Both the position numbers and the translations under genes were made by a program. 56,070 bases of DNA, from positions 1 through 56,070 of the IMG/VR virus record IMGVR_UViG_3300021197_001081; one strand, 5' to 3'. This document shows, piece by piece, positions 39,594 through 46,923 of the stretch. Below the pieces are notes generated by a model that was not told where the DNA came from, did no database searches, and saw nothing but the letters and a program-made list of their open reading frames with translations. Source of the DNA: a virus. The number at the start of each line of letters is the position of its first letter. Position 1 is the stretch's first letter.

Positions 39594-39614
39594 GATTTAA
39601 TTATATTTAGTTTG

Positions 39615-39646
39615 TAAAGATATTATAAATAATTAATAAAAACAAA
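39615..39646 (-). promoter_or_regulatory. Minus-strand promoter for the replication block
   Basis: On the minus strand TTTG (39646-39643) is followed after exactly 20 nt by TATCTTTA (39622-39615), near the Bacteroidetes TTTG-N19-21-TAnnTTTG layout with one change in the last base. It points to the 59-aa gene and the replication genes behind it. Upstream, an ATCGTA/TACGAT hairpin near 39660-39685 may end transcripts of the preceding operon. Confidence 0.6.
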
Positions 39647-39701
39647 TAAAGATATGAAATCGTACCCAAAAAGATACGATATCATACCTAAAAAATGCTT
39701 G

Positions 39702-40304
39702 TTACGAATTAACAACAGAATTGGTTTCTAACACCATATCTATGAATTCTTTTATGTGTCTTTTCTCTGCATAATCATGCTCTTTCATAGCGTGTTCTAA
39801 CTCTTCTCTATCAGTTTCATCCTCGAAATTATAGTACAAGTTGTCCATCCAAGAATGAATGTCATCTTGGTATCTGTACTCATGATAAGTCATTTCTTGA
39901 TGGTCTGTTATTCCATGTTTGTCAAACTTAGCTATGCCAGCAAAATCCTCTCCACACTCTTCATACTCCATCTCAGCTGTTAAGCTGTAGTGTTGACATA
40001 TTTGTTTAACCAACCTTACTGGTGGACTCCATGCACTGTCTCCAGCAACAGTGAAAGTTTCTTCATCATCACATGGATAGTCATTTAGATTAAAGTCCCA
40101 CCAGCGTGTTCCGTAGTAGTAAAAATCCTTATACTTTTTCTCAAGCTCTTCTTGAGTAACTCCAATCTTACCCTTGTCAAGTACGAAGTCTCCAAACTCT
40201 AAAAAGTAATTGGTTTTATCATACTCCTTGAATTTGTTTCTTAGTTTTTTTAATGCAGCAGCGTTTCCATTAAACGTTACGTAATTCCAACAATTGTTTG
40301 CCAT
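39702..40304 (-). CDS. Api92-like / YubB-type ferredoxin-fold protein
   Basis: A 200-aa acidic protein. MANNCWNYVTFNGNAAAL at the N-terminus, YGTRWWDFNL in the middle and SAWSPPVRLVKQICQHY near residue 95 match the DUF1281/YubB-like (Api92-like) family seen in phages and plasmids; function unknown. It is the last gene of the structured-RNA operon. Its leader follows the tRNA-like minihelix at 40337-40378. Confidence 0.7.
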   Translation of the reverse strand: MANNCWNYVTFNGNAAALKKLRNKFKEYDKTNYFLEFGDFVLDKGKIGVTQEELEKKYKDFYYYGTRWWDFNLNDYPCDDEETFTVAGDSAWSPPVRLVKQICQHYSLTAEMEYEECGEDFAGIAKFDKHGITDHQEMTYHEYRYQDDIHSWMDNLYYNFEDETDREELEHAMKEHDYAEKRHIKEFIDMVLETNSVVNS

Positions 40305-40336
40305 TTTATTTAATTTAAGTTATGTGACTTATGTCG

Positions 40337-40378
40337 TGAATAGGGAGGAATCGAACCTCCCAAGCACCATGCTATTCT
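40337..40378 (-). ncRNA. tRNA-like minihelix 1 (acceptor plus T-arm, 42 nt)
   Basis: Read on the minus strand from 40378: a 7-nt 5-prime acceptor strand AGAATAG, an 11-nt connector CATGGTGCTTG, T-stem GGAGG, T-loop TTCGATT, T-stem CCTCC, then the acceptor 3-prime strand CTATTCA. Positions 2-7 pair with 66-71 (six pairs) and position 1 against 72 is A-A. D and anticodon arms are missing and no CCA is encoded. It starts four bases after the upstream stop codon. A GAC-ATAA-GTC hairpin follows one base after it, then an A/T-rich leader and the ATG at 40304. A copy at 41875 has the same build with different stem sequences, so the pairing covaries. Confidence 0.8.
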
Positions 40379-40382
40379 GTAA

Positions 40383-40748
40383 TTATTCTGCTGGTAGCAT
40401 CACTGTGATATTATTGTCCTCTACAACAATAGTACCTGTGTCTCCCCACTCTTCTCCTCTCCACTCAATTTCTCCAGTCAGCTTTAATCCCCATCCTTTA
40501 AAGATGTACTTGATTACGTACTCTAACCACTTTACGTACTCGTAGAATTTCTCTCCACCATCCCACTCTAAGCGATGTTCTCCGTTCTGCTCTATAATCT
40601 CCCACTGCAACCATATTGATGGCTTTCCGTTTGGCTGGTAGCCATCCTCGTGTCGCTGATTAGCAAACTTCTTATACGTTTCAACCATGTCCTTTGTCAA
40701 TGGTTTATCAAAATTTAAACTTCCTCTAAAATCTGTACTGTATCCCAT
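40383..40748 (-). CDS. Conserved phage protein, unknown
   Basis: A 121-aa protein. MGYSTDFRGSLNFDKPLT, PSIWLQWEI, EWDGGEKFYEYVKWLEY and the C-terminal strand pair GTIVVEDNNITVM form a pattern seen in many phage early regions, with no known function. It starts two bases after the previous stop and ends just before tRNA-like minihelix 1. Confidence 0.65.
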   Translation of the reverse strand: MGYSTDFRGSLNFDKPLTKDMVETYKKFANQRHEDGYQPNGKPSIWLQWEIIEQNGEHRLEWDGGEKFYEYVKWLEYVIKYIFKGWGLKLTGEIEWRGEEWGDTGTIVVEDNNITVMLPAE

Positions 40749-40750
40749 AT

Positions 40751-40984
40751 CTATTTATTTTTAATTATACTTCGATTAATAAACGTCACTATTGCATTCA
40801 GCTCGTGAATCTCATCACTACCTATTCTTTGACTCCAGTCCAGTATTCCTTTGACTGCAGCTCTGACTTCATTTAAGTCTCTGCGTAATGATTTTACTTT
40901 CTTTTGAGAATCTAAATAGTCTCCCATTAATTCAGTGATTCTGTTGAAATCTCTGTCTTTTTGTGTTTCTTGATAACTGCTCAT
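40751..40984 (-). CDS. Small helical protein, unknown
   Basis: A 77-aa charged helical protein (MSSYQETQKDRDFNRITEL) with probable coiled coil. Its leader comes after a double-hairpin element (41004-41045) and contains AACTTAAATTTAATACA, nearly the same as other leaders in this operon. Confidence 0.5.
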   Translation of the reverse strand: MSSYQETQKDRDFNRITELMGDYLDSQKKVKSLRRDLNEVRAAVKGILDWSQRIGSDEIHELNAIVTFINRSIIKNK

Positions 40985-41003
40985 TGTATTAAATTTAAGT
41001 TAT

Positions 41004-41045
41004 GGCATTATTGCCTTTTACCACCAAAACCCCACTCCGTTTTGG
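41004..41045 (-). other. Double hairpin in an intercistronic gap
   Basis: Minus strand: a 7-bp hairpin CCAAAAC/GTTTTGG (41045-41039 with 41030-41024, 8-nt loop), a short linker, then GGCA-ATAA-TGCC (41015-41004). The second hairpin has the same ATAA loop as those after both tRNA-like minihelices. The 95-base gap 40985-41079 contains no gene. It is a candidate processing or 5-prime stabilising element. Confidence 0.5.
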
Positions 41046-41079
41046 AAGTGAGGCAGGTGTGTTTAGGGATCAGTTGATT

Positions 41080-41304
41080 TTACTCTTTGCTCTCTGTTAT
41101 AGCTTGGTAAATATCATCAATTGTATTTTGTGAAAGTATGTCCCATATGCATACTCCACAGTGTGTGATAGCTGTAATACTTATCTCAGCTGGACTACCA
41201 CAATAATCATAAGTCTGAGGTTCAGCGTGTGCATACTCATAGTATACATCAAGCTCTATGTCATCCACTTTGTAAGTGAGTGTTTCTGAATTCCAAATGC
41301 TCAT
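41080..41304 (-). CDS. Small acidic protein, unknown
   Basis: A 74-aa acidic protein with DIELDVYYEYAHAEPQTYDY and Cys residues near 36, 49 and 52. Its start overlaps the previous stop by four bases. Unknown family. Confidence 0.5.
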   Translation of the reverse strand: MSIWNSETLTYKVDDIELDVYYEYAHAEPQTYDYCGSPAEISITAITHCGVCIWDILSQNTIDDIYQAITESKE

Positions 41305-41552
41305 ATAAGATTGTTTAATTGGTTAATACTCTCGCTGAAATCTACTCCAGCAATCACATTTGGATTTGGCTCTTCACATCCTTCCATTTCTACCCACTGC
41401 TCGTAACTTCTGTAGCTTGTGCGAACAAAAATAATAGACTCTAATGACTCTATGCTCCTGCCATTGATGTGGCATACTAATCTCATTTCTTCTTCGGTTG
41501 CGATGGTCATTACATCGTCCCATACTTGATTGAATTTATCTATCTTCCCCAT
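41301..41552 (-). CDS. Small acidic protein, unknown
   Basis: An 83-aa acidic protein (RLVCHINGRSIESLESI, then a YEQWVEMEGCEEP segment). It overlaps the lipoprotein gene upstream by 13 bases and the next gene by four. Unknown family. Confidence 0.5.
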   Translation of the reverse strand: MGKIDKFNQVWDDVMTIATEEEMRLVCHINGRSIESLESIIFVRTSYRSYEQWVEMEGCEEPNPNVIAGVDFSESINQLNNLI

Positions 41553-41707
41553 TTTGATTTTTTGTGTTTTTTGTTAGACTTCCAGTAATTTTTCTTTGCC
41601 CATTTCTTCTTCATCTTAGATGTCTTGCATCGCTTTGAAGTTCCACAGCTCGTTAACGTGGGTGTAGCTATAAGCATACACATCACAAACATTAAAATTT
41701 TCTTCAT
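41540..41707 (-). CDS. Small Lys-rich lipoprotein
   Basis: A 55-aa protein: Met-Lys-Lys start, an apolar signal segment (residues 4-18), a lipobox LTSC with Cys at residue 21, then a strongly basic tail rich in Lys, Trp and Ser. It should be exported and lipid-anchored. In a phage early operon a small lipoprotein often blocks superinfection, but that role is only inferred here. It starts 17 bases after the previous stop. Confidence 0.6.
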   Translation of the reverse strand: MKKILMFVMCMLIATPTLTSCGTSKRCKTSKMKKKWAKKNYWKSNKKHKKSKWGR

Positions 41708-41724
41708 AATTGTAGTTTTTTAGA

Positions 41725-41838
41725 TTAATCTTGGTCTTTGGTTTCTACGTAGAACTCTGCATGTTCATGGCAGTCTCCACATAAAGAATCACTAAGGAAT
41801 GATGGGGATGCCCCACAACAGTTACTGTACTTATTCAT
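41725..41838 (-). CDS. Tiny zinc-ribbon-like protein
   Basis: A 37-aa protein with a Cys-Cys pair at 7-8 and Cys-Gly-Asp-Cys-His at 20-24, a plausible zinc site (MNKYSNCCGASPSF, then LCGDCHEH). Tiny Cys4-type proteins of this look occur in many phages. It is the first gene after tRNA-like minihelix 2; its leader begins with a TGCA-ATAA-TGCA hairpin. Confidence 0.6.
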   Translation of the reverse strand: MNKYSNCCGASPSFLSDSLCGDCHEHAEFYVETKDQD

Positions 41839-41874
41839 AAATTATAGTTTTAAATATCTGCATTATTGCATTGA

Positions 41875-41916
41875 TACTGGAGAAGGAATCGAACCTTACT
41901 TACAACCATTCCAGTT
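41875..41916 (-). ncRNA. tRNA-like minihelix 2 (acceptor plus T-arm, 42 nt)
   Basis: Minus strand from 41916: acceptor strand AACTGGA, 11-nt connector ATGGTTGTAAG, T-stem TAAGG, loop TTCGATT, CCTTC, acceptor strand TCCAGTA. Positions 2-7 pair with 66-71; 1-72 is A-A and 49-65 is T-C. Every element has the same length as in copy 1 (7, 11, 5, 7, 5, 7), yet the acceptor sequences differ at most positions, so base pairing is conserved while sequence is not. Sixteen bases separate it from the upstream stop. After it come CAA-type spacer bases, a TGCA-ATAA-TGCA hairpin, a leader and the ATG at 41838. Confidence 0.8.
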
Positions 41917-41932
41917 AGTCGGACAGCGTGTG

Positions 41933-42427
41933 CTAAAGCTTGTAGCTATAGTTCTCTGCTACCCATGTGCATAAAGTCTCTCTATTGCCATCTGACAGCT
42001 CCATGAACAGGTTAAATACATTAGCAGTTCCACCATGACCATTTCTCTTGTTGAGGTTGTTCCATTTGGCTTCTATGTGATTAGCCAGTGACGTACCCTC
42101 ACCAAAAGCTTTTTGTATCCATCCAGCTGGGAAGTTATACGCAAAGTACATGAAGTTAGTAATTTGGTCAGCTGCAGCATCTCTTTTCTCTTCTGCTTCA
42201 TCATACTCGTCATACCATTCTGTCCATACGTACAGCTCCTGCTCATGTGCGTCATCCAGTATGAACTCATCAGAGCATTCAGCGTAGGCACATTTGTAGT
42301 TCTCTTTCAACCAATCCACCAAGCTGGATTCATCTTTAATGGTTTCGTCATTGTGAAGAAGAAATCCTTCATACATTCCTTCTCCAGTGATAATACATGT
42401 TCTTGGTTCTTTGTTTAAATTACTCAT
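41933..42427 (-). CDS. Acidic protein, unknown
   Basis: A 164-aa strongly acidic protein (CIITGEGMYEGFLL at the start, a Tyr/Trp/Glu-rich middle ELYVWTEWYDEYDEAEEK). It is the first gene behind hammerhead A, with a 22-nt leader after the predicted cut. The charge pattern could mimic DNA, which is speculation. Unknown family. Confidence 0.55.
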   Translation of the reverse strand: MSNLNKEPRTCIITGEGMYEGFLLHNDETIKDESSLVDWLKENYKCAYAECSDEFILDDAHEQELYVWTEWYDEYDEAEEKRDAAADQITNFMYFAYNFPAGWIQKAFGEGTSLANHIEAKWNNLNKRNGHGGTANVFNLFMELSDGNRETLCTWVAENYSYKL

Positions 42428-42443
42428 AATTGTAGTTTTTAAT

Positions 42444-42493
42444 GATTAAGACGCTTCACAGCGTTTCGACTATTGAAGTCTCGTCAGTTAATC
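42444..42493 (-). ncRNA. Hammerhead ribozyme A (type I)
   Basis: Minus strand from 42493: stem I GATTAA, core CTGACGA, stem II GACT with loop TCAAT and AGTC, core GAAA, stem III CGCT with GNRA loop GTGA and AGCG, then TC and stem I TTAATC. All conserved hammerhead core bases are present (C at the free position 7 is allowed). Cleavage is expected between 42450 and 42449. The stop codon TAA of the upstream gene lies inside stem I, and 22 nt remain before the ATG at 42427. Compensatory changes relative to hammerhead B occur in all three stems. Confidence 0.93.
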
Positions 42494-42820
42494 TATGTGC
42501 TGCTCCAGTGCCGACAGCACGTCATACATCATGTGTCTTTGTGTAGCATCATGAGTTACGTTCTTTTCGATTAGCTTGTACATAAGAAGTCCTACGTCTT
42601 CAGCATTCAAGCTATCTACTTGGTCTTGCCAGTCTGAGTTTGTAAGTTCAACTGAAGACATTAATTGTTTGATTTGTGGTTCTTTGAGCTGTGATACAGC
42701 ACTGTCAAGGTTATCAATACTTGCTTGACATGAGTCATGGTCAGGATTCCATTCTCCACTTTGTAACATTTCAAAATCTTTGATTGCTGTTACTACTTTA
42801 CTAATTACTTTGTAATTCAT
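42488..42820 (-). CDS. Acidic helical protein, unknown
   Basis: A 110-aa acidic, helical protein (ISKVVTAIKDFEMLQSGEW near the start, LMSSVELTNSDWQDQ in the middle). It starts 17 bases after the previous stop. Its own TAA forms part of hammerhead A stem I, so ribosomes finishing this gene would enter the ribozyme. Unknown family. Confidence 0.5.
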   Translation of the reverse strand: MNYKVISKVVTAIKDFEMLQSGEWNPDHDSCQASIDNLDSAVSQLKEPQIKQLMSSVELTNSDWQDQVDSLNAEDVGLLMYKLIEKNVTHDATQRHMMYDVLSALEQHID

Positions 42821-42837
42821 TGTGATTTAATTTAAGA

Positions 42838-43077
42838 TTAATATAATTGTGATTTTTCTATTTGTTTTACCTCTCTTGCTGGTAATTCACTGGTGTACTC
42901 TTCGTACTTGTCAAATGTCTTTTGACACAGATTATCGTACTTGGTATACATCTTTTCATTACCATCTCCATCAGCGTCATTACGCATGTCATTGGCAGTA
43001 TTATACTTGATTAGCCAGTAAACTGCTTTGTTTACTTTTGCTTGGTGTTTCTTGTTTAATGCTATTATTTTACTCAT
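42838..43077 (-). CDS. Small charged protein, unknown
   Basis: A 79-aa helical protein (KIIALNKKHQAKVNKAVYWL; then an Asp-rich NDADGDGNEK-like stretch and Tyr/Lys). It starts two bases after the stop of the 46-aa gene. Unknown family. Confidence 0.5.
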   Translation of the reverse strand: MSKIIALNKKHQAKVNKAVYWLIKYNTANDMRNDADGDGNEKMYTKYDNLCQKTFDKYEEYTSELPAREVKQIEKSQLY

Positions 43078-43079
43078 AA

Positions 43080-43220
43080 TTAAAATGGATTAGATGTTAC
43101 GAAATAGCTTAGTGCTATTACATTCTTTTTTACTTGTTCTAATTCGTACAGCTTTTGAGCTGTCTTGATTAATGCACAGTCAATACGTACATACTTGATT
43201 ACTGTTTTTGATTTACTCAT
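43080..43220 (-). CDS. Tiny protein behind hammerhead B
   Basis: A 46-aa frame (MSKSKTVIKYVRIDCALIK, helical, ending VTSNPF). It begins exactly 22 nt after the predicted cleavage site of hammerhead B and ends two bases before the next start. That placement supports it as a real gene despite its size. Confidence 0.5.
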   Translation of the reverse strand: MSKSKTVIKYVRIDCALIKTAQKLYELEQVKKNVIALSYFVTSNPF

Positions 43221-43237
43221 TGTAGTTGAATTTTAAA

Positions 43238-43285
43238 GTTAAGACGCCTCTCGGCGTTTCGTCCTATATGGACTCATCAGTTAAC
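43238..43285 (-). ncRNA. Hammerhead ribozyme B (type I)
   Basis: Minus strand from 43285: stem I GTTAA, core CTGATGA, stem II GTCC with loop ATATA and GGAC, core GAAA, stem III CGCC with GNRA loop GAGA and GGCG, then TC and stem I TTAAC; one more A-T pair extends stem I. This is a full match to the hammerhead consensus. Cleavage is expected between 43243 and 43242. The stop codon TAG of the upstream gene overlaps the first base of stem I, and 22 nt remain to the ATG at 43220. Confidence 0.95.
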
Positions 43286-43623
43286 TATGCATCGTGAACA
43301 CAGCCAACTGCTGAGTTCTGCCACTCGAAGTACAACCCATGCTTCTCCAGTGTTTCTTGTAGTTTCTTGCTGCCCCAGTACATTTCAGTATCGTAGTAAT
43401 CTAACCACTCTTCTGCATTATACTCTTCTGCTTTTATCCAAAAGTATCCTCTGTAGTCTTGGTAACCTCGCTGGTTTTGATACCATATGTCTATTGGGCA
43501 ACCAAGTTTTTTTAACTCGATAAACGCTTTGATTGATGCTGGAGTCATGTGGCTGATTTCTTCAGCAGAAAACTCATTGTTAAACATTTTTTTTGTGTAC
43601 TTCACTGTTGTTGAATTTGACAT
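43285..43623 (-). CDS. Acidic aromatic-rich protein, unknown
   Basis: A 112-aa protein with EEISHMTPASIKAFIELKKL and a Trp/Tyr-rich middle (YQNQRGYQDYRGYFWIKAEE). It is the first clear gene of this operon. Its leader follows the three-way junction at 43647, and its stop is merged with hammerhead B. Unknown family. Confidence 0.55.
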   Translation of the reverse strand: MSNSTTVKYTKKMFNNEFSAEEISHMTPASIKAFIELKKLGCPIDIWYQNQRGYQDYRGYFWIKAEEYNAEEWLDYYDTEMYWGSKKLQETLEKHGLYFEWQNSAVGCVHDA

Positions 43624-43646
43624 TTTAATTAAATTTAAAGATTAGT

Positions 43647-43694
43647 TATCGGTACGAGTATTGCTCTCGCTGGTCTGTCAATCAGATACCGATA
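43647..43694 (-). ncRNA. Three-way junction RNA before the first operon gene
   Basis: Minus strand: closing stem TATCGGTA/TACCGATA (8 bp, 43694-43687 with 43654-43647), hairpin TCTG-ATTGA-CAGA, linker CCAG, hairpin CGAG-AGCAATA-CTCG. It is 48 nt, the same size as hammerhead B, and ends 23 nt before the ATG at 43623. It lacks the hammerhead core GAAA and the tRNA T-loop. It may be a third processing or stabilising element; activity is unknown. Confidence 0.55.
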
Positions 43695-43704
43695 TTAGTG
43701 TCGT

Positions 43705-44140
43705 AAATTTCACTCTCAAGACTCGCACATTAACTCCATCCACAGATGGTTAAAGAGATGTCATTCGCTCTACAGAATCCTCAATTAAGGGATGCCAATA
43801 TTTTATCCTTGAAATCATTTTTACTTTATGTAAGACCTATGAACACCTTGGTGCTAACTACTTCGCTTGATAGATATGGATAGAGAGATAATCATAACAG
43901 AATCGTTAAATGATTGATTATCAGCAGTCTGCGTGAAGCACAGTTAAAGCAACACTTTAGATAATGTGTCGTAACTGCTTGATTCTCAGTAGTTTAGGTC
44001 AGAATGTCAATGAACGTGAGGTTTCCCCCCATGGCGAATATACAACTTTATGTTTATATAACAACTATAAATGACAAATAAAATGTAAATAATTTGTCAG
44101 TAACTATGCTTTGCTGGACAGCAGTTCTCTTTACTTACTA
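43705..44140 (-). other. Long non-coding leader of the structured-RNA operon
   Basis: About 435 bases without a convincing gene on either strand, downstream of the likely minus-strand promoter at 44145. It holds several potential stems: GATAATCA/TGATTATC (43887-43894 with 43915-43922), ACAC/GTGT inside AAGCA/TGCTT near 43948-43982, and CACC-TT-GGTG near 43845. A near-repeat, TTGATTATCAGCAGT and TTGATTCTCAGTAGT, lies near 43914 and 43980. It could be a structured leader RNA or an origin. Confidence 0.4.
44072..44099. repeat. Inverted repeat TGACAAAT/ATTTGTCA
   Basis: Perfect 8-bp arms (44072-44079 and 44092-44099) with a 12-bp A/T-rich spacer, about 50 bases downstream of the minus-strand promoter box. 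It shares TGACA/TGTCA with the repeats near 36465 and 45063-45241, suggesting one binding protein. Confidence 0.5.
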
Positions 44141-44144
44141 TCTA

Positions 44145-44152
44145 CAAATGTA
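44145..44152 (-). promoter_or_regulatory. Candidate promoter of the structured-RNA operon
   Basis: On the minus strand TACATTTG fits TAnnTTTG. No TTTG is found at the usual distance. It is the only good box upstream of the operon on this strand. Confidence 0.45.
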
Positions 44153-45306: not shown

Positions 45307-46923
45307 ATGAGCAATTATATTCCAAAGAACCTTGAGTTCGATCAGCCTGGTCGAAATAAATTAATAAAAGGGATTACAAAAATTTCTAAAGCAGTAAAGA
45401 GTACGTTAGGCCCACGCGGAAAAACAGTTCTAATAGAATCGCCTGAACATATCGGAGGTATGACAATAACAAAAGACGGTGTAACTGTAGCTAACTCTAT
45501 TTTTTTGGATGATCCTGTAGAGAACCTTGCGGTTCAAATGTTAAAAGATGCAGCACGTAGAACTGCTAACTCAGCTGGAGATGGAACGACTACAGCAATT
45601 GTATTAACCGAGGCTATTATAAAAGCTGGTGAAAGACTTCTAACAGAAAAAAATAATATAACTGAGGTTGTAAAATCAATAAACAGATTCAGTAAAATTA
45701 TTCTTAAAAAATTAAAAAAGAACTCACGAAAAATTACCAAGGCAAGGCTATTAGATGTTGCAACAATTTCAGCAAACAACGATAAGTCTTTAGGAAAAAT
45801 AATTGCTGATGCTTATAATAAAGTTGGAAAGAACGGTATTGTAACTGTAGAGCGATCTCAAAACCATGAGACATATGCCACAGTTACTAATGGAATAAAA
45901 GTTGATAGAGGTTATACTTCTAATTTATTTATCACTAATCAAAAAAACGATGAAGCAATCTTAGAAGATGTTTTAGTTTTAGTTTGTGACCAGGAGATAA
46001 GTAATATTCTACAAATAGAAAATGTTTTAAAACCAATCATTCAACAAAATAAAAAACTTCTCATCATTGGTCCATGCTCAGTCAATGTTGTGAATACCCT
46101 GGCGGCAAACGTAGTGCGTAACGGACTTAAGCTTTGTAATATTATACCACCACAATTTGGATATAAACAACACGAGCTTATGCAGGACATTGCGTTGTCG
46201 GTAGGGGCTAAATACTTTTCAGAAAAAACTGGAGATGATTTAAGTCTGTTAAGCATGGAAGATCTTGGTCATGCTGATAAAATTATTTCAGGAAAGAGTC
46301 AAACGGTTATCATTAAAAATAATCAAATGACTGAAGAGATAGAAAAAAGAATAACTGATCTTAAGGAACAACAAGAAAACACAGAAATAGTTTCAGATAA
46401 AGAGTTTATAAACGAGCGTATTGCAAGTTTATCAGGATCAATAGGAGCTATTTATGTTGGGGGTAATTCTGATATAGAGCAAAAAGAAAAGTATGACAGA
46501 GTAGAAGATGCTGTGTGTGCTGTTCGTAGCGCTTTGCAAGAGGGTATTGTAAGAGGTGGAGGACTTGCTTTATTTTATTCAAGAGAAGAACTTAGTTATA
46601 TTTCTAAGAAGACAGTTAATGATGACGAAAGTACAGCTATAGATATTCTAATGGAATCTTTATGTGCGCCATTAAGACAAATATTACAAAACGCTGGATT
46701 AAATCTTGATGAATACTACAATGTATCTACAACAAGTGATTCATGGATTCTTCAACAATTAGACGAGTACAATGTAAAGACTGAAGTAAAAGGAGATTTT
46801 TTTAAGATGGGTGTTATAGATCCTTTAAAAGTAACTAAGACTGCTTTTGAAAATTCAGTTAGTGTAGCAACAACTATTCTAACAACAAACGCAATAATAA
46901 CTCACGCGCGAGTAAAAGAATAA
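45307..46923 (+). CDS. groEL: Phage-encoded chaperonin GroEL
   Basis: A 538-aa group I chaperonin subunit, near the bacterial length of about 545. Nucleotide-site motifs are intact: LGPRGKTV at 34-41, TKDGVTVA with Asp57, AGDGTTTA with Asp92, and VEDAV with Asp401 next to EGIVRGGGLAL. These correspond to E. coli Asp52, Asp87 and Asp398, so ATP hydrolysis should work. The C-terminus lacks the Gly-Gly-Met repeats of bacterial GroEL. The apical domain is divergent. GroES follows three bases later. It probably folds phage proteins such as the capsid or giant ejection protein. Confidence 0.95.
   Translation: MSNYIPKNLEFDQPGRNKLIKGITKISKAVKSTLGPRGKTVLIESPEHIGGMTITKDGVTVANSIFLDDPVENLAVQMLKDAARRTANSAGDGTTTAIVLTEAIIKAGERLLTEKNNITEVVKSINRFSKIILKKLKKNSRKITKARLLDVATISANNDKSLGKIIADAYNKVGKNGIVTVERSQNHETYATVTNGIKVDRGYTSNLFITNQKNDEAILEDVLVLVCDQEISNILQIENVLKPIIQQNKKLLIIGPCSVNVVNTLAANVVRNGLKLCNIIPPQFGYKQHELMQDIALSVGAKYFSEKTGDDLSLLSMEDLGHADKIISGKSQTVIIKNNQMTEEIEKRITDLKEQQENTEIVSDKEFINERIASLSGSIGAIYVGGNSDIEQKEKYDRVEDAVCAVRSALQEGIVRGGGLALFYSREELSYISKKTVNDDESTAIDILMESLCAPLRQILQNAGLNLDEYYNVSTTSDSWILQQLDEYNVKTEVKGDFFKMGVIDPLKVTKTAFENSVSVATTILTTNAIITHARVKE

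Follow-up and report, generated by a model that had tools for sequence, protein, structure and literature searches.

Hammerhead ribozymes and tRNA-like minihelices fill the gene gaps of a phage operon and may act as exchangeable RNA-processing devices

Introduction

The IMG/VR virus record IMGVR_UViG_3300021197_001081 is a 56-kb sequence, analysed here over all of its 56,070 nucleotides (nt; hereafter the window), which carries on its minus strand an operon of twelve small genes, labelled A to L, running from 43,623 down to 39,702. Here we propose that the gaps of this operon hold modular devices, among them hammerhead ribozymes (HHRs) and transfer RNA (tRNA)-like minihelices, that probably cut one early polycistronic transcript at the borders of gene blocks. 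The proposal is drawn from sequence: the devices lie between a stop codon and the next start, their pairing is kept despite sequence change, and they travel with genes. Both device types are also found in the gene gaps of many unrelated phages. The terminase (74%) and primase (66%) of the window are closest to those of the uncultured podovirus MW202828 and next closest to those of Flavobacterium elemoviruses and Cellulophaga phages; because of these resemblances, this marine phage is most likely a podovirus of Flavobacteriia.

Results

A device at every border between gene blocks

Five gaps in the operon exceed 50 nt, namely A/B (64 nt), D/E (60 nt), E/F (94 nt), I/J (95 nt) and K/L (78 nt), and each contains a structure: two type-I HHRs, two tRNA-like minihelices and one conserved hairpin. 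The remaining gaps measure 2 nt (B/C, J/K), 17 nt (C/D, F/G), -13 nt (G/H) and -4 nt (H/I), negative values denoting overlaps. Because structured gaps above 50 nt alternate with gaps of at most 17 nt, the operon is divided into the tight blocks A, B-C-D, E, F-G-H-I, J-K and L, with a device at every border. An earlier reading of the window from its letters alone (the sequence-only reading) had claimed a structure in every minus-strand gap above about 50 nt, unstructured gaps of 2-17 nt or overlaps elsewhere, and two hammerheads and two minihelices among the structures, all of which was borne out when the gaps were recomputed and the elements scored.

Two hammerhead ribozymes and their relatives

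43237-43286, minus strand: HHR1, type I, gap A/B; Rfam RF00163 35.9 bits, above the gathering threshold (34)
42444-42493, minus strand: HHR2, type I, gap D/E; RF00163 25.8 bits, E 0.0054, below the gathering threshold (34)

Both HHRs, including the lower-scoring HHR2, have the full CUGANGA / GAAA core, a cleavage triplet before stem I, and stems I-III with an open stem I. The predicted cuts, between 43243 and 43242 for HHR1 and between 42450 and 42449 for HHR2, would leave genes B and E with a 22-nt leader each, in agreement with the leaders of about 20 nt expected by the sequence-only reading. The first six bases of HHR2 overlap the end of gene D and its stop codon.

More than 40 related contigs were gathered by searches with four operon proteins (contigs and loci are cited below by L numbers). 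Across 18 HHRs from the window group and L140, 98.9% of the stem cells were paired, with 55 double changes compared with 17 after shuffling, and the stems of HHR1 covary in relatives. In the homologous operon of the relatives L058 and L059, one gap after another holds an HHR, 7 and 9 in all, respectively, in contrast to the mixed devices of the window. These relatives strengthen the case. In 21 HHR-containing contigs there were 1-9 HHRs each, always on a single strand per contig, and a reversed control pattern gave zero matches in the same 21; several HHRs flanking genes on one phage strand is the arrangement that defines clustered phage hammerheads. The elemovirus NC_055853 (positions 1-30,000) yielded two hammerhead-like cores, both degenerate.

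Our first HHR pattern included TAA, which biased the stop-codon statistics: its matches start at the upstream stop (median -2 nt), a value partly forced by the TAA. The statistics were redone with a pattern that ignores the upstream stop, with which 83 of 89 distinct HHRs followed the end of an open reading frame (ORF); for random positions the figure was 34 of 89. The cut lay at a median of 25 nt from the next start. In this set the stops lie mostly 7-10 nt before CTGATGAG; in 11 cases the stop is at -3, beside the core, and in 16 it is at +1 and is formed by the UGA of the core itself, the catalytic one. With the first pattern, the distance from the HHR end to the next start is 16.5 nt. Only 1 of 144 HHRs falls inside a same-strand ORF, compared with 266 of 797 random placements. 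A leader hairpin, CAGGCGAAAGCC or CAGTCGAAAGAC, recurs after several HHRs in the gaps of L058 and L059, and in L534 it follows the three-way junction described below.

Two minihelices that resemble half a tRNA

41875-41916, minus strand: minihelix T2, gap E/F; 6-bp (base-pair) acceptor stem, ATGGTT linker, T-arm AAGGTTCGATTCCTT; model R1 37.1 bits
41859-41870, minus strand: leader hairpin TGCA-ATAA-TGCA, immediately after T2, by sequence
40337-40378, minus strand: minihelix T1, gap K/L; 6-bp acceptor stem, ATGGTG linker, T-arm GGAGGTTCGATTCCTCC; model R1 28.9 bits
40326-40335, minus strand: leader hairpin GAC-ATAA-GTC, immediately after T1, by sequence

T1 and T2 have the T-arm GGTTCGATTCC in common, and ATGGT lies within the 11-nt linker between acceptor and T-stem; R1, which scores both, is a covariance model made from the minihelices of other phages. 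The coaxial length of acceptor and T-arm is 11 bp in T1 and 11 positions, one of them mismatched, in T2. ARAGORN finds no tRNA in the window, whose minihelices have no anticodon arm, and the Rfam scan did not name them, with no match to mascRNA-menRNA (RF01684) at E<5. T1 and T2 are present near letter-for-letter in most related contigs, T2 being conserved in more than 12. The letters needed for a tRNA-type elbow, GG in the linker and TTCRA in the T-loop, are present, and part of the sample was selected by these very letters.

On comparative grounds, the minihelices are a widespread RNA family that goes unrecognised by Rfam at its thresholds. Its layout is an acceptor stem, a D-loop-like ATGGT and a T-arm, with no anticodon. 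A pattern blind to the acceptor, ATGGTN{4,12}GGTTCGATTCC, gave 129 distinct matches, 25 of which are ordinary tRNAs. At least 6 contiguous acceptor pairs were found in 49 of the 104 non-tRNA matches, compared with a mean of 5.2 and a maximum of 11 in 200 trials with swapped upstream flanks. The summed length of acceptor and T-stem, with any split allowed (n=70), was 10 bp in 1 case, 11 in 17, 12 in 35, 13 in 14 and 14 in 3; 66 of 70 therefore lie at 11-13 bp around a peak of 12, the length in tRNA (7+5), and the control is flat. A model search returned 80 distinct members; in their alignment, which was fitted to the model and so leans toward it, 93.4% of cells are paired and double changes number 400, against 117 after shuffling. 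Rows of a further alignment, A1, were picked for pairing, for which reason its covariation was left unused and the flank swap is the unbiased test. A detector using sequence only gave 136 distinct matches, most of them from loci selected by pattern, and 2 on reversed sequence. When folded alone, 109 of 129 family members give the expected structure.

A short D-stem or a small additional arm is present in some members (L087, L173, L181, L239, L288), in support of ATGGT being a D-loop, and the Rfam mascRNA model weakly matches the minihelix of L173 (30.9 bits, below the gathering threshold of 42.5). In many members ACTA, ACGA or ACAA comes after the helix, resembling a CCA end except that the second C is substituted; NC[ATG]A tails were counted in 24 of 70 members and NCCA in 3 of 70. 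Minihelices are separated by 16 nt from the preceding stop and by about 34 nt from the next start, and 3 of 123 lie inside a same-strand ORF (random placements as above). A hairpin of at least 4 bp starts no more than 12 nt downstream of 46 of 129 minihelices, compared with 10.4 when shuffled, and there is no hairpin excess on the upstream side of the 129; an excess confined to the downstream side fits a new 5' end at the 3' side of the minihelix.

Arrays of minihelices occur, with about 8 in L210, 5-6 in L271, L262 and L282, and 4 in L178. A scan of bacterial genomes also finds the minihelix, and several copies adjoin phage early genes: those of an anti-repressor and an integrase in Lactococcus fujiensis, for example, and, in a Bacteroidales metagenome-assembled genome, that of a Sak4-like protein. 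Cultured strains with minihelices near phage-type early genes include Lactococcus fujiensis JCM 16395 (L395) and Enterococcus cecorum DSM 20682 (L405). In a partial check of the closest named records, MW202828 (36,000-60,850) and NC_055853 (1-30,000), no minihelix was found. A C-rich run (CCCCC) stands before minihelices in L085, L141, L177 and L178, and these minihelices, though from different phages, have the acceptor GAACTG/CAGTTC in common, which suggests common descent or mobile copies.

Devices travel with genes and exchange places

Within the related contigs, HHR2 tracks gene D, being present with it and absent without it, and T1 is lost together with gene K in L014, L024 and L026. HHR1 is retained before gene B where unrelated genes replace A, and T2 is retained after gene E where the downstream neighbour differs. 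With the window family removed, 16 of 116 loci selected for HHRs contained minihelices, against 3 of 104 phage loci taken as background (odds ratio 5.4, p = 0.004), and the minihelices were nearly always on the HHR strand.

Direct exchanges are also seen. L173 has the order gene X, minihelix, gene Y, and L087 the order gene X, minihelix, small gene, HHR, gene Y, where Y is 55% identical over 507 amino acids (aa); L088 has the L087 layout with a different small gene. The device directly before Y therefore differs, and the difference apparently arose by insertion or loss of a gene-plus-HHR unit. Likewise, where the window has a minihelix after gene E, L140 has an HHR after its homologue of that gene (39-41%). 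Because the two device types share their placement between stop and start, their neighbourhoods and their strand, and replace each other in these loci, the comparison supports their exchangeability well. The sequence-only reading had called the devices functionally interchangeable, a view in line with this comparison; the cutting by RNase P and RNase Z that it attached to them is a prediction.

The I/J hairpin, the operon leader and the operon genes

41020-41062, minus strand: long conserved hairpin, gap I/J; z = -3.6, sequence conserved in 12 contigs
41004-41015, minus strand: leader hairpin GGCA-ATAA-TGCC, after the I/J hairpin; by fold, conserved
43648-43693, minus strand: three-way junction closing the operon leader, upstream of gene A; z = -2.2, compensatory changes
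39650-39689, minus strand: long hairpin, then a T-rich stretch, after gene L; gap z = -6.1

The I/J gap probably corresponds to the "double hairpin" of the sequence-only reading. Its three-way junction also exists as a structure, with 100% of pairs kept over 4 distinct sequences and 4 pairs changed on both sides; it was misplaced among the intercistronic elements, as it sits in the leader before gene A. A pattern scan for the junction outside this phage group gave no convincing extra members. The I/J hairpin and the junction may be further processing devices, a weaker case than that for the HHRs and minihelices. The operon leader of about 530 nt (43624-44152, minus strand) is strongly conserved in L058 and L059, with an invariant junction loop AGCAATA; it has no match in Rfam and may form one large structured RNA. 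The hairpin after gene L is likely the end of the transcription unit; a promoter-like stretch, TTTG-N20-TATCTTTA, follows it (39594-39701, minus strand). Across the window, promoter-like motifs do not exceed the frequency expected by chance. In L058 (7026-7126) there is a structured gap of about 100 nt with a GTGGTGG/CCACCAC stem, neither HHR nor minihelix.

43285-43623, minus strand: gene A, 112 aa, first gene of the operon; ORF
42838-43220, minus strand: genes B and C, 2-nt gap between them; ORFs
42488-42820, minus strand: gene D, 110 aa; ORF
41933-42427, minus strand: gene E, 164 aa; ORF
41080-41838, minus strand: genes F-I, a block with overlaps and gaps of at most 17 nt
40383-40984, minus strand: genes J and K, 2-nt gap between them; ORFs
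39702-40304, minus strand: gene L, 200 aa, DUF1281_C domain (Pfam PF18406, E 7e-9)

Neither a blastn search of isolated phages with the operon nor a tblastn search of phages with gene L gave a match, and family searches with the small proteins of the operon returned nearly all unknown functions. Outside the operon, the phage encodes a GroEL (PHROG 5725; 45307-46923, plus strand), as elemoviruses do.

Discussion

How the devices would work

Self-cleavage of the HHRs directly 3' of GUC would give the upstream messenger RNA (mRNA) a 2',3'-cyclic phosphate end, and the downstream mRNA would begin with a leader of about 22 nt bearing a 5'-OH. Since many of the ribozymes share bases with the upstream stop codon, their folding is probably delayed while a ribosome terminates there. 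The minihelices would mimic the acceptor/T-arm half of a tRNA, elbow included, and would be substrates of the host enzymes that mature tRNA. RNase P would cut on the 5' side; on the 3' side RNase Z, or a different 3' tRNA nuclease, would do so and yield a leader with a 5'-monophosphate. The small leader hairpin often found 3' of the minihelix would protect this new 5' end. We infer the cutting, the enzymes, the end protection and the gating by terminating ribosomes, with RNase P and RNase Z suggested by analogy with t-elements and mascRNA. RNase P gauges the distance from elbow to cut along the stack of T-stem and acceptor (PMC4919913), and in mascRNA, a substrate of RNase P and RNase Z, the tRNA fold is held by two D-loop guanines that dock into the T-loop (PMC11693755). 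RCCA contributes to the contact with bacterial RNase P RNA (PMC12710915). Since that RNA pairs with RCC (PMC12710915), the altered CCA-like end would point no less to RNase Z or a different 3' nuclease than to RNase P.

Several observations weigh against this mechanism. The frequent ACNA tail, in which RCCA has lost its second C, is expected to contact bacterial RNase P RNA less well, and T2 has its mismatch at the base of the T-stem. Minimum-free-energy folding omits the acceptor stem of T1, and that of T2 within its gap, and the folding of the E/F gap is no better than that of shuffles (z = -0.33); as thermodynamics alone misses some structures, it is the comparative evidence that carries the case. 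The association between device types is weak in the reverse direction, with HHRs in only 2 of 120 loci selected for minihelices. Finally, the window HHRs have no leader hairpin, and protection by hairpins is hence not general.

Other explanations

Of the other explanations, we regard the most credible, though still unlikely, as one in which only the HHRs process RNA and the minihelices stay uncut, serving as stable ends or ribosome-recruiting leaders that protect against exonucleases or help initiation. The position of minihelix ends, about 34 nt before the next start, would suit such a role, and the substituted tail suggests that the function of a mature tRNA end is not needed. Against it, the sharp 12-bp length of acceptor plus T-stem is what tRNA-maturation enzymes measure, the leader hairpin on the 3' side fits a new 5' end there, and the exchange with self-cleaving HHRs suggests the same job. 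It is more doubtful still that the devices are mainly recombination islands, conserved linkers for swapping small genes in which RNA function is secondary. In its favour, a gene and its device are gained and lost as one unit (D and HHR2, K and T1), and genes are exchanged around devices that stay in place; but compensatory changes in the stems lower DNA identity and keep RNA structure, and the bias in strand and position is strict.

T-arm and 3' acceptor sequences are typical of attachment (att) sites derived from tRNA genes, and some phages with minihelices are integrated prophages, both of which would suit an origin of the minihelices as decayed tRNA genes or att-site remnants. We disfavour this explanation and give it very little credence: both acceptor strands are kept and covary, there are arrays of several copies per phage, the minihelices lie between cistrons, and the copies in the window have no anticodon arm, ARAGORN finding no tRNA there. 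The explanation with the least to recommend it, which we consider hardly credible, takes the structures for chance folds in AT-rich gaps. The unexceptional free energy of the E/F gap would agree with it; the comparative results, and the excess of minihelix detector matches over reversed sequence, do not. Chance folding is refuted for the HHRs and minihelices by their covariation, and might still account in part for the I/J hairpin. The processing of one early transcript at block borders is the reading that we retain as probable.

Relation to known systems

Clustered prophage hammerheads, several of them flanking single genes or short blocks, were described by Perreault et al. (2011; PMC3088659) and proposed to split phage transcripts into gene-length mRNAs; tandem hammerhead sets were active in vitro, the A. 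tumefaciens set also in E. coli. Transcript splitting by HHRs is accordingly an existing proposal with in vitro support, and the claim of the sequence-only reading that a mixed system would be new needs narrowing: it is the tRNA-mimic family, and its mixing and exchange with HHRs, that look new. Compared with the clusters of 2011, up to 9 HHRs stand here in one early operon, and they are mixed with, or exchanged for, tRNA-like elements. Our searches of open-access papers yielded no report of tRNA-mimic minihelices between phage genes.

The t-elements of plant mitochondria and Haloferax volcanii (PMC4326828) are tRNA-like substrates of RNase P and tRNase Z in precursor RNAs. In contrast, the minihelices are phage-encoded, arrayed between protein genes and marked by a conserved D-loop-like ATGGT linker, and their cutting is predicted. 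They also resemble mascRNA and menRNA (from MALAT1 and MEN beta; RF01684), tRNA mimics cut by RNase P and then RNase Z with a two-guanine elbow between D-loop and T-loop. Those, however, form the ends of human nuclear long noncoding RNAs, most phage elements have no anticodon-like arm, and only L173 was seen to score with the corresponding model. Mitochondrial tRNA punctuation is similar in that tRNA-type units between genes are excised to free mRNAs, but the mitochondrial units are working tRNAs, whereas the phage minihelices cannot decode. The tRNA-like domain of transfer-messenger RNA (tmRNA) has an acceptor stem, a stemless D-loop and a T-arm; unlike tmRNA, the minihelices have no mRNA-like part and show no sign of charging.

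Implications

A broader proposal, to which we give about even chances, is that the operon exemplifies a general RNA punctuation used by phages of several bacterial phyla, in which unrelated devices are exchangeable gene-end cassettes that make separate mRNAs with set ends. Self-cleaving ribozymes would be one kind of device and mimics of the tRNA elbow, cut by host tRNA enzymes, another; the hairpin and the three-way junction of the window are possibly further kinds. Since members of the minihelix family adjoin phage genes of cultured strains, the proposal is directly testable, and the devices could provide compact parts for fixing mRNA ends in bacterial synthetic operons. The minihelices make up a large, unannotated family of phage and prophage RNAs, and the operon points to a likely function for phage hammerheads, which was left open in 2011. 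If the proposal is true, many phages would use host tRNA-maturation enzymes, or ribozymes instead, for intergenic mRNA processing, an mRNA-level counterpart of mitochondrial tRNA punctuation.

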